Shown here in pieces: positions 42,177 through 48,336 of a stretch of 48,379 bases of DNA. The DNA lies in contig JAABTP010000014.1 of assembly GCA_011389815.1 (NCBI GenBank), positions 1 through 48,379 on the forward strand. Direction: 5' to 3'. A model generated the notes under the pieces. That model was not told the DNA's origin. It searched no databases and saw nothing but the letters and a program-made list of their open reading frames with translations. This stretch comes from Desulfobulbaceae bacterium (lineage in GTDB: Bacteria > Desulfobacterota > Desulfobulbia > Desulfobulbales > Desulfobulbaceae). The position numbers and the translations under genes were made by a program. How positions within the stretch are numbered: position 1 is the first letter of the stretch; every line of letters starts with the position of its first letter.

Positions 42177-42626
42177 CTAAAATTGCTTGTGAGAATCAAG
42201 GAGAATAGTGACTGGCCCGGAATTTACCAGGCTCACATCCATCATGGCCTGGAATTCTCCGGTGGCAGTGGTGATGCCGGAATCGGCAATGGTTTGGATA
42301 AACTCTTCGTACATTCGGCGGGCCTTGTCTGGCGGGGCGGCCTCTGACCAGGAAGGACGACGGCCTTTGCGGCAATCAGCCAGCAGGGTGAACTGGGACA
42401 CGATGAGCATGGAGCCTCCGGTGTCGGCCAGGGAGTGGTTCATCTTGCCGTCATTGTCCTCAAAGATCCGCAGGTTGATGATCTTGTCGGCCAGCCAGGT
42501 GATGTCCTTTGGTTCATCGTCCTTGTGAACGCCCAGCAAGACCAGCAGGCCCTCGCCGATGGCCCCGGTCTGGCGGTCGTCTACTGTTACTTTGGCGGAT
42601 GTTACTCTTTGGATTACTGCTCGCAT
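42177..42626 (-). CDS. dtd: D-aminoacyl-tRNA deacylase
   Basis: DTD hydrolyses D-amino acids from tRNA as a chiral proofreading step. The 149-residue protein shows [35 protein letters not shown] and the Gly-cisPro [11 protein letters not shown], which are the invariant motifs. Length is normal. It precedes the M16C peptidase gene on the same strand, and the AT-rich radical SAM/HerA operon follows on the other side (80 nt). Confidence 0.97.
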
Positions 42627-42706: not shown

Positions 42707-44602
42707 TCAGCGATCAACTGAGCCATACCCGAAACCGTCCTCTGCAAGATCCTTAGGGGAAATCTGGTAATGTTTAAGTAAACATTTCAATTTATTGTTC
42801 ATGCAAATACCATTTATTTCGCTAAAATTATTTCTCTCAATTATCGGCAGGACATTGTTCAATTCGACGTTAGACATTGATTGATAAAGTTTTCTCCAAG
42901 AATCGGTCAAGCCTTTTTTTTCGCACAGACGCCGATGCAAAATATACGCTTCCGGCATGTACAGGATTTCAAAAAACTCATTTTCATCCTTTCCAAAAGC
43001 GGCCTTAAAAAAATCTAACTTTGTACCGACCTTACCTTTCGTCGCATTCAGAACTGTTTGTATTGAACGAATGAACTTTCGGTTCCAATGGTTACCGATG
43101 TAGGTTCTGCCGTGATGCAGTTTATTATCGTCCCAAATCGGACTAAATCTCATTGGAAACGAATAAATCTGTAAATCAAGTTCATTGCTTAACTCGACAT
43201 TTATTCTCATCCGTTGATACAGTTCAACTGGTCTATCCTTGTGATTGAACAGTAAGTAGTTAGATAGCTGTTTGATATTGTATTTTGCAGCAAGCCGAAT
43301 GGCTTTCTCGTATGGCTTTGCAAGTTTCATGCTGTCGAAGGCAATCCTTAATGGCTTAATCGGAATTGTCGCAAGAAGAGCCATTTTTTCCTCTGTAAGT
43401 AATCGCGCATCAACACCTTGGTTAAAATCTACATACCTATATTTAGATGCTTTATTGCGCCGATCCTCGTACAGCTCCTTAACATCCTCATATACACCAG
43501 TCAGCTGGTCACTTGTCGGAAGTAACTCTGCACATATTTCATTTTCCTCAAGCAGCCGTAAATAGTTTTTGAGAGTCGCTCCAGACAATCTAGATCGAAA
43601 TTTAATAAGGATTGAATGCGCTAATCGACGATAAGCAAATTCATTAATACCGGACTTCAGGTTCGCTATAGAGATTTGTAAATAATTCGGGCTTACAAAC
43701 TTTGCTCCTTTATAGAATCCGTTAGCACATATCTGTTGAATAATTTCTGGAAACCTCTTTGATGCCAAAACATTATTATCAAGCAGCAACAAATTCCTTC
43801 TCGCACCATATGTTCGGTCGATATATTCAAGCTGTTCGGATATTGGAAGGTACCCTTTGAAGACAGGTTCTAAAACAGGAACTGCACAGAACTCGCATTT
43901 ACGTATACAGCCACGCGATGTATACCCGTAGTATCCATCATGCTCAGGATATGTATAATCGATTTCCTCAAGAATTGAATAATCTGGAGGTAGTTGGTCA
44001 ATTATGGTTGTATCCCCCTCGTCCAACATACCGGGTGTATCCAGCAAGCCGATAATAGGTCTAATGCCTGTTGCTTCCTCAACCTCATCCGGTATCAAAG
44101 AAGCCATTACTCCGCCGACTAAAACGTTACTTTCGTCTGAAACCAACTTTTTGCAATACTCAATCGTTTCAATAGTTCTCTTAAAATAAAAAGTAAACAG
44201 AGACGTTACACAAATTCTATCCCAACTTGCACAACTCTCAACACGACCTGCTCTATAGGCTTTATTATAATATTTCAACCAAATTATAATGGATGGAGAG
44301 AAAATACCGCCTAACTCCGAAATTTGAGCCAAAGCGGTCTTTCGTCCATATCGAATGAATTGAGCAACAATTGGAGCGTGGCATTTCCAATCTATCCTAT
44401 CATCAATGGAGTAGAGTTGTTCTATAACGGTCTCAGTATACAGCTCGATGACAAGCTTACGTAAGTCCCCTTTAAAAAAACGCACATAATCACCGCGATT
44501 CCGGTGATACGCCGCTAATTTCATCAATCCAAGAGGCGGATATTTATTTCTATAGCCAGGTTCTACAAGCAGTACCCGCCTCTGCTTCAGCGAGTTACTC
44601 AT
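42707..44602 (-). CDS. Radical SAM protein with N-terminal B12-binding-like domain
   Basis: The 631-residue protein has the radical SAM cluster motif GCIRKCEFCA (C232-x3-C236-x2-C239) near the middle, preceded by a region similar to the B12-binding Rossmann fold (VLLVEPGYRNKYPPLGLMKLAAYHRNRG) without the D-x-H-x-x-G cobalamin ligand. Past the core, a long C-terminal region has no family match. The first 8 nt overlap the preceding Hsp90-like gene, so it is co-translated with it. Some radical SAM enzymes in defence loci make modified nucleotides or peptides; the reaction here is unknown. The gene is AT-rich compared with dtd and the peptidase gene. Confidence 0.85.
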   Translation of the reverse strand: MSNSLKQRRVLLVEPGYRNKYPPLGLMKLAAYHRNRGDYVRFFKGDLRKLVIELYTETVIEQLYSIDDRIDWKCHAPIVAQFIRYGRKTALAQISELGGIFSPSIIIWLKYYNKAYRAGRVESCASWDRICVTSLFTFYFKRTIETIEYCKKLVSDESNVLVGGVMASLIPDEVEEATGIRPIIGLLDTPGMLDEGDTTIIDQLPPDYSILEEIDYTYPEHDGYYGYTSRGCIRKCEFCAVPVLEPVFKGYLPISEQLEYIDRTYGARRNLLLLDNNVLASKRFPEIIQQICANGFYKGAKFVSPNYLQISIANLKSGINEFAYRRLAHSILIKFRSRLSGATLKNYLRLLEENEICAELLPTSDQLTGVYEDVKELYEDRRNKASKYRYVDFNQGVDARLLTEEKMALLATIPIKPLRIAFDSMKLAKPYEKAIRLAAKYNIKQLSNYLLFNHKDRPVELYQRMRINVELSNELDLQIYSFPMRFSPIWDDNKLHHGRTYIGNHWNRKFIRSIQTVLNATKGKVGTKLDFFKAAFGKDENEFFEILYMPEAYILHRRLCEKKGLTDSWRKLYQSMSNVELNNVLPIIERNNFSEINGICMNNKLKCLLKHYQISPKDLAEDGFGYGSVDR

Positions 44603-46187
44603 GAGATTTTGTTATTCCGAACCGCTCTTCGATTTTATAAATCAATACGTTCTGGAGGTCTGGAGACAAGATAGTCCTGATGACTTCATAAATTTCACCT
44701 ACTAATTTCTGTTCTTTCCTACTCAGTTTGCTCAGTTTGTTTGCTTTATACTTCTTGCCGTTGCTCTTTTTTTCTGACGAGTTTCCCTTGTTTTTTTTGG
44801 GTGATTCTGTATTTTTCTTCTCAGTATTATTGCTGCTTCTGTACTGAACAAAACGGGCCAAAGTTTCATTATCTTCGGCATGTTGTTCAATCCTTTTTAA
44901 CTGTTTTTTGGCCTTTTCCGCATTTTCTCTGATTTTATCAAGCTTGTCCTTTTCCTCTTTCTCATGTTCTGGGCTATAAAATTCCTGTGTTTCTAATGTG
45001 TCTTCAAATTTTTCAATCTGGTCTGCATAAGTTTCAACCTTCTTTTCCGCACTATTCCATTCTGATGCCTTCCGGCAAATATTTTGAAGCTTGCTTGTCA
45101 ACCCATGAAGTGCATCCTCAAATTCACTCAACAGTTCACACTCATCAAAATAATCACGTTGCCCATTCGGAAACAGTTCTTCATGCAATACATGAATTTC
45201 ACCGATAAAATAACGATGAAAACGGTTTTCTCGAAAAAAGCGTTGTAAAGTAAATTCATCTCCAACTTGTATATTACCTTTGCGGAGCCTTATCCCCCAA
45301 GCTTCGTTAACAACAGGTATAAGCTGCATATACTTAGTGACGGCGTACCATCCCACAGCAAGAAGCTGATTATGCTTTGAATACAAATCGAAAAATTCAA
45401 TATCAATTACTTCGTCAATACGTTTCTTCTGTTTTTTTTCCTGCTTATATACATTATTACGATATGCTTTAAATAGCTGAGTCGTGTTGACAAATATTCG
45501 ATAGCCTTCGCAGGATACCCCCCTGTCAACAAGCCCCTTTTTAACTTTAGAAGTGAACACAAATTTCGGATCGTAAAAATCAACCGGGGCTACCATCCGT
45601 AAATTTTTTGTCACCGCATCGTCATCAAGTAATTTCACATTTTTTACATTCTGCAATATCACATTGAAATAATGCTTGTCCTTGTGCTCTACTATCCCAT
45701 CCTCTATCGTTGTAATGGCTTGAATTACCTCAGATGCAAGTTTCTTGTCCTTTTTATCACTGATAATCTCTTTCAGCTTCTGCCCATTCCATTGCAAAAC
45801 AGTTTTTGTATCTTCGCCCTTAAACGAAGTTTCAATAATCAATTCATCACAATAAGCCAATCCAGCCAAACGACCGATACCACGAAACCCCAAGTTCTTC
45901 GTTCTGTCTTTGCTGGAGGCGGCAATACTTGTGAGGACTTGCCAAGCATTCTCCCTTGGAATACCTACCCCATTATCTTCAAAAGAAATACGTCGCTTTT
46001 CTTTATCAATAACGATTTGTATATCACCTTCAGAAATATCCTCTAAAATTTCTCTAGTTACAGCCTCGTTAATTGCATCGATCGAGTTTTGAACGTACTC
46101 CCGAAAAATCACCAACGGATTATGGTACATCCCCGTTGTGAGGATTTCGATTATATTTTTTCCTATAATGACAGAGTCGGAATTCAT
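44595..46187 (-). CDS. Hsp90/GHKL-type ATPase with coiled-coil Lys-rich C-terminus
   Basis: The N-terminal ATPase shows the GHKL motifs: FREYVQNSIDA (E30, N34, D37 region), FEDNGVGIP (D71) and NLGFRGIGRLAG (ATP-lid, G103/G105). Residues about 110-370 resemble the middle region of Hsp90/MutL-like enzymes (IRLRKGNIQVGDEFTLQRFF, FPNGQRDYFDECE). The C-terminus is charged: coiled coil about 370-440 (EKEEKDKLDKIRENAEKAKK), then a Lys/Asn/Ser-rich segment, and a final amphipathic helix. ATG 46187 follows the HerA stop by 2 nt and the end overlaps the radical SAM gene. The protein probably forms ATP-driven clamps on DNA or on partner proteins, but this is inferred from the ATPase class. Confidence 0.8.
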   Translation of the reverse strand: MNSDSVIIGKNIIEILTTGMYHNPLVIFREYVQNSIDAINEAVTREILEDISEGDIQIVIDKEKRRISFEDNGVGIPRENAWQVLTSIAASSKDRTKNLGFRGIGRLAGLAYCDELIIETSFKGEDTKTVLQWNGQKLKEIISDKKDKKLASEVIQAITTIEDGIVEHKDKHYFNVILQNVKNVKLLDDDAVTKNLRMVAPVDFYDPKFVFTSKVKKGLVDRGVSCEGYRIFVNTTQLFKAYRNNVYKQEKKQKKRIDEVIDIEFFDLYSKHNQLLAVGWYAVTKYMQLIPVVNEAWGIRLRKGNIQVGDEFTLQRFFRENRFHRYFIGEIHVLHEELFPNGQRDYFDECELLSEFEDALHGLTSKLQNICRKASEWNSAEKKVETYADQIEKFEDTLETQEFYSPEHEKEEKDKLDKIRENAEKAKKQLKRIEQHAEDNETLARFVQYRSSNNTEKKNTESPKKNKGNSSEKKSNGKKYKANKLSKLSRKEQKLVGEIYEVIRTILSPDLQNVLIYKIEERFGITKSHE

Positions 46188-46189
46188 AG

Positions 46190-47863
46190 CTACTTCTCCT
46201 GAAAATAAATAGGTCGCGGAAACCGTATATGAAGCGGTGAAGTGAACACCGGATTTTGCACAATATACTCTCCCTGAGTCAGTCTAATCATCATATTCTT
46301 ATATACTTTCGGGATGTAACTATAATCTTTCTTTGACACTTCAATTGTATTTGTCCGTCCATACGCATGTGTTGAACAGTTCCCTTTAACTCGTTCGTGG
46401 ATAGCACTTTTAAACTGTTCAGCTGAAAACAGAACAATTCCCAAGGAGCGTCCACGTTCCGATATATCAATTATCTGCCTCAAGATTGGTGAATTTTTCG
46501 GCAAATCTGACCCTGCATATTTATTCAGCTCGTCTATGAAAACGATAATTCTGGAAGGAATATTTTCCTCATTGTCAGTAAGCTGACCAAGTTTGAGGTC
46601 ATAAATTGTCCTGATTACATCGCCAAAAACAAAAGATTGCAGGTTTTCGTCAAGTTTGGCGATATCAACTACAAATACCTCGTTTGCCTTGATCTGCTCC
46701 AATGCGGAACTCAACCGGATTTCACTCCGCTCAGATACCACGCGATTTCCAAACATGCTGTTTTTCAAAGATTTAGAGATGATCCGTTTGAACTTTCTCC
46801 AACTTTGTACAGTGATATCCTTATCAGTTCTACCACTGTTCGCTTTTCCGTATTCACTGATTTCATTTTCCAGTTCATCCCAGTTGCGAATTCTCGCAAA
46901 TCCTCCTTGCCTCGACTGAATATAATGACACGCAGATTCCATTGTTCCTGTCGAATCTTCAATGTTTGCAAAAAGAAGATCCAAGCTGTCAAGATCTTTG
47001 TCAAAGCTGTACTTGTATCGAAATCCTTTCTTCTCCTCTATCAGTTCATCAACATAGTCTTTCTGGGCATATGTGTTCGAAAAGTCATCCTGTTCATATG
47101 GGAAAAAATACTTTACGTTGTCGAAAGGGTTCGGTTCAATGCCAAGCTCCTTGTATCGTTTGGCATCTGCTTCCGTGAATTGCCCAGAATCGGGTCTCTT
47201 GTCCAAAGTCAGCAGGTCTCTACCCTTAACGTTGAGAACAACAAATGCAACCGACTCATCGCCGAACGGTTTATCATCCCCAACTTGACTCATTCGATGC
47301 TGGATGCCTTTTAACAGAAACATTGCATATGATGTTTTGGCAGCAAGCCCGGATATTCCACTGATATTTAAATGCGCTCCCTCCGGTCCTATTAAGAATT
47401 TCCCATTAAAATTAACCGGCAAAAGCACCTGTTCACTTTTATTTTTCGAGTACATCTGGATATATCCGCACGGTAGTGCATTCTGCACATTCGCCAGCCC
47501 CAATGCTTCGCTAACTTCCTCATTATTAGCAAGTCTTACCTGACTGCCGTCCTGAACAGGTGTATAAATCGCTTTGGTATTCTTAACTACACTGGCCTTA
47601 ATGTAGTTCATACCTATTCGTCGAGTCGGAGCGGTCGTATCAACCTCGCCAAAGTCGTTCGAAATAAAAGCTCCCATATATCCAGGTGTATCAGTGATAT
47701 GATTTATTTCTTCAATAACACCGTATGTCTTCGACCCCTTCAAATGCTCTACGACAACTACATCAAATGGATCAAGTATCCTTTCTGGGGGTGTCCAAAA
47801 ATAAAATTCATCAATTGTAGTAGGCCTGTTTTCAAGCGCAGTTACTTTCCCAATAATTCTCAT
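46190..47863 (-). CDS. herA: HerA-like DNA translocase ATPase (DUF87)
   Basis: The protein opens with a HAS-barrel-like domain (MRIIGKVTALENRPTTIDEFYF, in part, then DVVVVEHLKGSKTYGVIEEI). The P-loop reads GISGLAAKTSYAMFLL (residues 169-184), a variant with A-A-K-T instead of G-S-G-K-S/T that recurs in some HerA-family groups. Walker B is IIVFIDELNKYAG (D-E near 442), and the C-terminal part (SPILRQIIDISERGRSLG, SAEQFKSAIHERVKGNCSTHAYGR) matches the HerA helicase core. HerA hexamers translocate double-stranded DNA and act with NurA. The NurA-like gene is immediately upstream (14 nt) and the Hsp90-like gene 2 nt downstream, so one operon is likely. Confidence 0.85.
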   Translation of the reverse strand: MRIIGKVTALENRPTTIDEFYFWTPPERILDPFDVVVVEHLKGSKTYGVIEEINHITDTPGYMGAFISNDFGEVDTTAPTRRIGMNYIKASVVKNTKAIYTPVQDGSQVRLANNEEVSEALGLANVQNALPCGYIQMYSKNKSEQVLLPVNFNGKFLIGPEGAHLNISGISGLAAKTSYAMFLLKGIQHRMSQVGDDKPFGDESVAFVVLNVKGRDLLTLDKRPDSGQFTEADAKRYKELGIEPNPFDNVKYFFPYEQDDFSNTYAQKDYVDELIEEKKGFRYKYSFDKDLDSLDLLFANIEDSTGTMESACHYIQSRQGGFARIRNWDELENEISEYGKANSGRTDKDITVQSWRKFKRIISKSLKNSMFGNRVVSERSEIRLSSALEQIKANEVFVVDIAKLDENLQSFVFGDVIRTIYDLKLGQLTDNEENIPSRIIVFIDELNKYAGSDLPKNSPILRQIIDISERGRSLGIVLFSAEQFKSAIHERVKGNCSTHAYGRTNTIEVSKKDYSYIPKVYKNMMIRLTQGEYIVQNPVFTSPLHIRFPRPIYFQEK

Positions 47864-47877
47864 AATTTTTAAAAATA

Positions 47878-48336
47878 TTAAAGTAGATGCATAATTACAT
47901 GATCACTAAGACGATGGCTCTTCAGGCAACGCTCTGTCAAATGTATCGGATACAGGTGATTAGCCCATCTCCGGTCACTTCCATAGCAAGTTGGATTACG
48001 CTCCCACATGATATGCGCTGAAATGGAGTCAATAACCTCACTTCCCAAACCATCCCTAACGGTTTTATCATCCACCAAGAGCTTTTCAACTTTCACGACA
48101 CCATCAAAGGGACTGATAGTATGTTTAATATCACGAATCCTGATATACCAAGTAGCGAAATGGACTGCGCCCCCCTCCCCGGCAGCAACATTTGATTTAA
48201 ATTTAAAAGCGGGGGTGCGATGGTAGAGGGGGAGTTGTGCAATCAACGAGGCGTTCGATTTTCCCTTTTGATCGCAGCTCTTCTCAGGATTAAATTTTTT
48301 GGAACAGGCCCCTGACAGCCTTTTTCTGCTAGCTGG
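47878..48336 (-). pseudogene. NurA-like nuclease, C-terminal part, 5' end disrupted or beyond window
   Basis: The frame is open back to an in-frame TAA at 48337-48339 without a clear ATG; a TTG at 48246 is the only start-like codon with sensible length (122 codons). The visible part (HFATWYIRIRDIKHTISPFDGVVKVEKLLV in outline, then SDRRWANHLYPIHLTERCLKSHRLSD) resembles the C-terminus of NurA 5'-3' nuclease, where a YP..L..A or YP..L..E helix follows an R-E or K-E strand. The N-terminal catalytic Asp region is missing. Since HerA lies 14 nt downstream, a NurA identity is expected. Either the gene was truncated, perhaps by an insertion near 48340, or a frameshift separates it from the upstream part. 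I cannot decide from this window. Confidence 0.5.

Follow-up and report, generated by a model that had tools for sequence, protein, structure and literature searches.

The 48,379-nucleotide stretch of DNA analyzed here (hereafter, the window) is the entire contig JAABTP010000014.1 (C54) of a Desulfobulbaceae bacterium with a 4.0 Mb genome in 233 contigs (assembly GCA_011389815.1), and near its end it carries a four-gene operon on the minus strand (42,707–48,303) that we regard as a candidate restriction-like defence system. The operon comprises the 3' part of a nurA gene (47,878–48,303), corresponding to residues ~249–389 of a NurA-like nuclease of ~389 aa; herA (46,190–47,863), encoding a 557-aa HerA/FtsK-type DNA translocase; a gene for a 530-aa GHKL/Hsp90-like ATPase (44,595–46,187); and a gene for a 631-aa predicted B12-type radical S-adenosylmethionine (radical SAM) enzyme (hereafter, rSAM; 42,707–44,602), in which C232, C236 and C239 lie in a CX3CX2C motif. 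The genes are spaced by 14 nt (nurA/herA) and 2 nt (herA/ATPase) or overlap by 8 nt (ATPase/rSAM), exactly as a preliminary description of the locus had them. Only the ATPase and rSAM genes lie between herA and dtd (42,177–42,626, minus strand), which is present in 8/8 genomes of the genus and forms the conserved border of a variable insertion site. The GC content is 0.386–0.394 at 43–47 kb compared to 0.519–0.524 at 39–42 kb, in agreement with the AT-richness relative to the dtd side that had been noted earlier.

The nurA gene of this genome is split by an insertion sequence. Its reading frame on C54, which extends from 47,878 to at least 48,246 and ends at a junction near the contig end, aligns to residues 247–389 of the 389-aa NurA of a related locus (L009; 76% identity), and residues 5–250 are encoded on another contig, C191, ~75 bases from its end. 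The last ~76 bases of C54 (48,304–48,379), which represent the end of the insertion sequence, are repeated at 17 other places in the genome with 95–100% identity (40 of the 58 candidates were scored), and at least four of these copies begin a contig. Because the C54 and C191 junctions share an identical 20-bp inverted terminal repeat, with TCC on both sides, and the C54 end is itself repeated, we attribute the interruption to an insertion sequence; C54 and C191 are probably adjacent in the genome. The preliminary description had recognized a NurA-like nuclease end, and this identity stands on the basis of fold (see below), but the end of the contig is not in itself what truncates the frame.

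To place the four proteins, relatives were collected by a HerA scan with one genome per species, which returned 210 loci; the counts below were made on the best 80 of the 210, which are not a random sample, and alignments A1–A4 contain 36–38 sequences from these 80 loci, plus the window where its gene is intact. The HerA profile (A3) matched HerA of Deinococcus radiodurans in the PDB (7f6d_B, E 1.2e-47), and K176/T177, D444/E445 and R470/R472 are invariant in 38 sequences (Walker A/B positions assigned by eye), placing the protein among HerA/FtsK ATPases related to a proven HerA. For the nuclease, the intact L009 NurA was modelled (pLDDT 87), and its best match was the nuclease chain 7f6d_G in the HerA-NurA complex of D. 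radiodurans (Foldseek E 2.0e-13; VIA: Z 21.7, root-mean-square deviation 3.8, 300 aligned). Further matches were TM1739 (Z 19.6), Sulfolobus NurA (16.6) and the TdpAB chain 8wet_G (15.5), followed by Argonaute and endonuclease V at Z about 10. A DGS motif lies near the N-terminus (among 36 sequences, D80, G81 and R83 are invariant and S82 is almost invariant), in the part that is encoded on C191 in the window genome. The Pfam NurA model PF09376 matched 0/13 operon-holding genomes, compared to 7/14 control genomes, and the operon NurA, which has the NurA fold as modelled, is a divergent branch. Pfam and NCBIfam alone identify neither HerA nor NurA here, and the two identities therefore rest on profile-to-PDB and fold matches. 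Of the four Pfam families that the preliminary description had proposed as a check, only an ATPase family gave a clear match (PF13589, E 2.8e-15); HerA and NurA were missed, and the radical SAM model PF04055 stayed below its cut-off.

The GHKL fold lies in the first ~150 residues of the ATPase, where N34, D37, D71, G75 and G100–G105 are invariant in 38 sequences, and the best PDB match (HtpG, E 1.7e-10) covers the N-terminal domain only. The rSAM protein is likewise below the PF02310 cut-off (E 0.026), and a comparison of alignment A1 to PDB sequences gave one chance-like match. Its structural model (pLDDT 91) resembles AprD4 (VIA: Z 22.6), MgmA (21.8), TsrM (20.1) and MiaB (20.1), and these matches to B12-type and methylthiotransferase enzymes cover both domains. 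The CX3CX2C string is present in 59/59 rSAM rows, 12 sequences from different gene contexts all have DFNQG and DNN, and the family can be recognized by the motifs RGCxxxCxFC, DNNxLA and DFNQGxDA. With both the CX3CX2C string and a modelled N-terminal B12-type Rossmann domain, rSAM has the features of a B12-dependent radical SAM enzyme, and the use of cobalamin is predicted. Phage relatives are grouped in phrog_9298 (E 7.1e-39).

The four genes form a conserved unit. With HerA, the query, in 80/80 loci (the L024 HerA was missed by open reading frame calling owing to a run of N), NurA is present in 79/80 (the exception, L067, begins at herA), the ATPase in 76/80, and an rSAM in 71/80, where the nine loci without it all reach the contig end first. 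Of the 71 contigs that extend to its position, 70 have a family rSAM gene; in the exception, L074, an upstream gene with a BLAST label was rejected as a family member because of its 25% identity and a tree branch ~10 changes long. Median intergenic gaps are 9, 9 and -1 nt. Among 63 complete loci with all four genes at full length (L074 included), pairwise distances of the four proteins are correlated (Mantel r 0.79–0.95), and without L074 and two twin records the correlation is 0.88–0.95 (60 loci), with 0/999 permutations as high. The co-occurrence that the preliminary description had asked for is thus evident and the unit is not accidental. The four genes are full-length in the cultured strains Desulfogranum marinum DSM 2058, Carboxylicivirga mesophila JCM 18290 and Dysgonomonas macrotermitis DSM 27370. 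The herA gene of a second genome in the genus (G004) is interrupted by a transposase gene (PF07592, E 4.7e-92), so that the NurA-HerA pair is broken in both genus members that hold the set, and we expected this pair to be the part usually broken. No clear bias was seen among the 80 loci, however: L039 and L076 have a split ATPase gene, and L030 and L037 a split rSAM gene.

Distribution supports a horizontal spread of this unit. By record title, 33 of the 80 loci belong to Bacillota, 28 to Bacteroidota and 4 to Thermodesulfobacteriota, and the others to nine further phyla or lineages, including an archaeal one, apart from five without a phylum; the titled range is eleven bacterial phyla and one archaeal lineage, including many metagenome bins. 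In a quick HerA tree (63 complete loci and the window), the window groups with Desulfogranum and then with a Bacteroidales genome, and Thermodesulfobacteriota appear at three positions, one of which is the twin of an Ignavibacteriales record and perhaps mis-binned. This twin pair (L040 and L041, from bins named Ignavibacteriales and Syntrophaceae) has identical HerA and the same neighbour layout, reflecting either recent transfer or mis-binning. In a sample of 395 genomes from the phylum, HerA of this kind was found in six, rSAM in eight and both in three (E up to 1e-40), and rSAM occurs in 4/345 genomes of the class of L014, including L014's own. The patchy distribution at phylum and class level and the HerA tree placement bear out the horizontal acquisition suggested earlier.

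The insertion site in the genus lies between dtd/M16C and two conserved genes on the other side, and the genes that follow dtd vary between species. In the archaeal repair cluster, mre11 and rad50 adjoin herA-nurA; neither is found between dtd and herA on C54, and the genes past nurA on C191 were covered by a clustering comparison. An ATPase of this set was matched in two of eight genus genomes, the window's own and G004, where the set occupies the same site and is adjoined by a methylase related to that of G007. In G007 the site holds a PstI-like restriction-modification pair, and in G002 an ORC/CDC6-like gene.

Carriage by mobile elements was also found. Four viral-collection contigs (L105–L108) hold all four genes, with nurA and herA 1.1 kb apart in L108, and Marinitoga camini virus 1 (L101: 7933–11,759) encodes NurA-HerA together with a convergent small, distant rSAM gene of phrog_9298. 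No weight was given to a further record with all four genes, MT836743 ('Bacteriophage sp.', human faeces), because it is a scaffold of 8.9 kb that is unverified. Plasmid records gave a HerA match in only six cases, all <34% identity, and two distant plasmid HerAs adjoin sbcD/sbcC-type genes.

Gene content around and within the operon varies. Seven home-made profiles run around the main operon (n = 80) detected DndB in 3 loci, PbeA in 3, AbiEi in 7 and AbiEii in 6, and PbeC, methylase (MTase) and type IIG in none; all seven were absent (0/20) from 20 control stretches with a third of the bases. At three of the 80 loci compared to none of the controls, DndB-like genes were rejected as a general neighbour. 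AbiE-type toxin-antitoxin genes lie upstream of nurA in L048, L063, L066, L073, L077, L081 and L085; these loci are not independent because those on the HerA tree are all Bacillota. Central-gene variants include an AAA/OLD-type ATPase (c4; 10 loci), accompanied by a second protein, c6, in 7 loci, and c10 (5 loci), and in L037, and partly in L030, other genes occupy the usual ATPase place. Seven loci (L018, L023, L025, L035, L045, L051 and L053) have an AAA/OLD-type ATPase and a ~280-aa protein inserted between herA and rSAM. This inserted ATPase is NsnB- and AriA-like (tested in L018). A second GHKL-type ATPase, which some loci carry, is present in four of these seven.

Outside the main clade, rSAM recurs beside other restriction cores. 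We considered 34 such loci: seven from the phylum search, a second copy in G004, 24 from the viral collection (two type-I loci were left out), L108 and the Marinitoga virus; in each group, one to three members were tested to name the core family, and the rest were assigned by sequence similarity or home-made profiles. The partners are a second-form NurA-HerA (L157, L158, L178 and L108; convergent to rSAM in the Marinitoga virus), SNF2 helicase with ParB-like proteins (L168, L169, L172, L173, L174, L176 and L179), DndB/DpdB-like proteins (L153, L156, L126 and L171; L009, which is not among the 34, also has one beside rSAM), PbeA-PbeC-PbeD (L152 and L154), DrmA-DrmB (L170), PD-Lambda-5_A (L164 and L165), type IV CRISPR genes (L181 and L182) and, as the sole recognized partner, the ATPase (L166, L175 and L177). 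An ATPase accompanies rSAM in 18 of the 34. The order in L154 is PbeA (1.6e-223), PbeC (3.7e-171), PbeD-like (1.9e-5) and rSAM, and L152 has the same order by similarity; in L170 it is DrmA (2.8e-161), DrmB (7s9v_B, 9e-8), NERD/UvrD, rSAM and ATPase; and in L182 it is csf1-cas11-csf2-csf3-rSAM by profile, with L181 the same by similarity. In a quick rSAM tree (22 of the 63 complete loci, the window and 36 others, with phage rows on long branches), the rSAMs of L170 (DISARM) and L179 (SNF2/ParB-like) are sisters with 61% identity in spite of their different cores, which points to an exchange of whole cutting cores. The C2 proteins are only weakly identified as ParB-like (PF02195 below cut-off). 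Conversely, NurA-HerA is found without rSAM behind a type IIG restriction-methylase (E 0) in L160 (301–6578), and similar type IIG/NurA/HerA genes occur by similarity in L159 (9748–15,944) and in L161, whose contig ends inside HerA. Thus, rSAM, often together with the ATPase, behaves as a module that different restriction cores have in common, which, like the broken nurA, the preliminary description had not foreseen.

Several of these loci have features of their own. In L154 (253–10,379) and L152, the first gene of the PbeA-PbeC-PbeD-rSAM locus encodes a protein of 977+ or 1308 aa that contains a stretch similar to sigma-70 region 4 and matches MzaA weakly. In L181 (5076–10,606) and L182 (5197–10,660), two radical SAM genes directly follow the type IV CRISPR genes. 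The second rSAM-ATPase pair of G004 (contig C1 near 2.17 Mb; L126: 5691–11,132) adjoins a DndB/HEPN-like 779-aa protein, viral contig L109 has a 1127-aa open reading frame at the position where L160 has the type IIG gene, and a 140-aa open reading frame (C9), read by eye as PD-(D/E)XK, has no database match.

Since several cores are found with rSAM, and NurA-HerA is partnered by rSAM in some loci and by a modification enzyme in others, we read rSAM (with the ATPase) as a self-marking arm and NurA-HerA as a cutting arm. A restriction-like defence role is well supported; the full reading, a mobile restriction-like anti-invader system in which the two arms are joined, is in our judgement about evenly balanced between right and wrong. 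HerA, a presumably hexameric translocase, and NurA, which by analogy would be a dimeric nuclease of RNase H fold, would thread and degrade DNA; the GHKL ATPase would serve on DNA as an ATP-gated clamp or as a scaffold, coupling the two arms; and rSAM would place a modification on host DNA that protects it by keeping HerA-NurA from acting or loading, with an overall logic like that of TdpABC or Dnd. Because nurA is broken in the window genome, only the marking arm would remain there.

A wider proposal is that the rSAM family is a new B12-type radical SAM DNA-modifying 'epigenetic writer' in at least six restriction cores (NurA-HerA, DISARM, Pbe/CxC-DndE, SNF2-ParB-like, PD-Lambda-5 and type IV CRISPR, with or without the GHKL ATPase), where it would replace methylases and DndC/CysH proteins, and that its phrog_9298 phage relatives mark or disguise their own DNA. 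We advance this tentatively, as possible rather than probable. Some of these systems usually carry a DNA methylase or a DndC/CysH-type protein. Several observations weigh against a DNA-marking rSAM. That rSAM takes the 'slot' of a methylase is judged by analogy from the usual content of such systems, and for type IV CRISPR a modification function is unproven. Of the 34 loci, eight lack a recognized partner and 16 lack a recognized ATPase, although some of these are cut by contig ends; with 24 from the viral collection, they are also no fair sample. Near the main operon itself, the DndB, PbeC, methylase and type IIG profiles gave only 3, 0, 0 and 0 matches. Finally, the nearest solved rSAM folds (AprD4, MgmA, TsrM and MiaB) act on proteins, small molecules or RNA, and none of them on DNA.

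The last point leads to the rival that survives best, a defence system in which rSAM does not act on DNA: it would make a modified nucleotide or small molecule, as viperin does, or modify a protein partner, and the GHKL ATPase would sense infection and activate HerA-NurA. The nearest solved folds (MgmA, TsrM, AprD4 and RimO) act on proteins and small molecules, and viperin is a known defence rSAM, though aligning over the barrel only (5vsl, Z 10.5, 193 aligned). On the other hand, the same family adjoins the DNA-directed cores Pbe, DISARM, DndB/DpdB and HerA, and we consider this reading unlikely, if a serious contender. A GHKL-gated suicidal nuclease without self-marking appears more doubtful. 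DUF4297-HerA works in this manner, with complex formation triggering promiscuous DNA cleavage (PMC11291478, in the part available), and the GHKL ATPase is plausible as a gate, but the reading leaves unexplained an rSAM kept in nearly every testable locus, and no DUF4297-like family is present among the four window proteins. Still less credible is a phage- or plasmid-borne weapon against competing elements rather than a host defence: the viral-collection contigs with all four genes and Marinitoga camini virus 1, with its distant rSAM, fit such a kit, whereas most copies found, in scans that do not sample comparably, are on bacterial contigs and plasmid HerA matches are few and distant. A DNA end-resection or repair unit is the least credible of all, in spite of the closeness of HerA to D. 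radiodurans HerA and of end resection by archaeal NurA-HerA (available text of PMC12977600), given the rarity and patchiness of HerA (6/395 genomes), the variable site with restriction-modification genes, the viral-collection carriage, the disruption in both genus members, and the hypothesis of the D. radiodurans authors that bacterial NurA-HerA attenuates break repair (PMC9960219, as far as available). The preliminary description, which had left defence or repair open, is therefore partly supported as a whole: given the rarity, patchiness and viral contigs, defence is much better supported than repair.

Compared to known systems, the mobile restriction-like reading has partial precedents. In the phosphorothioation defence TdpABC (TdpAB structures 8wet and 8wfd), TdpAB forms a cutting arm that resembles HerA/NurA, and DNA is modified by a separate enzyme, TdpC. 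The NurA model aligns to 8wet_G, albeit with a lower Z than to 7f6d_G; here, the role of marking enzyme would fall to a B12-type rSAM accompanied by a GHKL ATPase. DISARM carries methylases, and its DrmA-DrmB genes stand with an rSAM-ATPase pair in the relative L170, whereas no Drm protein is present in the window set. The nuclease-translocase pair of D. radiodurans (7f6d; PMC9960219) is similar in its HerA profile and NurA fold matches, but it is described as an end-resection pair and the present loci add the GHKL ATPase and the family rSAM. Dnd/PbeABCD systems (CxC-ABC ATPase and DndE) are linked to the family through the PbeA-PbeC-PbeD loci, and CxC-DndE systems carry DNA methylase or phosphorothioation (PT) genes in the modification role (PMC10853773, available portion); in the four window proteins, however, there is no match to DndC/D/E or PbeA-D. 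DUF4297-HerA and other HerA defence pairs also join a HerA translocase to a nuclease partner (PMC11291478, same part), but the nuclease here is NurA-fold rather than Cap4-like, an ATPase and rSAM are added, and none of the four window proteins is a DUF4297 or SIR2 partner. Of the mad genes of MADS, only mad8 was matched by any of the four proteins, by HerA at no better than 2.4e-7. The four-gene set fits no PADLOC model, consistent with the preliminary description, which knew of no named system with exactly this set. Literature searches on the gene names together found no description of it among the matches listed, and a mention in the 2004 FtsK-HerA survey is possible. The available portions of a 2024 HerA/FtsK capture survey (PMC10853773) and a 2026 BREX survey (PMC12839542) describe other HerA systems; NurA, GHKL and Hsp90 appear in neither portion, 'radical SAM' is used twice in the former, both times of DndC, and 'radical' is absent from the latter.

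The finding also bears on type IV-B CRISPR, in which a CysH-like protein has been compared with DndC and its role called an open question (PMC8175902, in the part available), because a family rSAM adjoins type IV cas genes in L181 and L182; no CysH-like gene was recognized at these two loci, where no profile search was aimed at CysH. According to PMC9960219 (available text), only few bacteria possess NurA-HerA, and relative to that account the present data considerably widen its range. If the interpretation is correct, it would place bacterial NurA-HerA in a defence system across eleven titled bacterial phyla and one archaeal lineage, and it would name an enzyme family that may write a new kind of mark on DNA.

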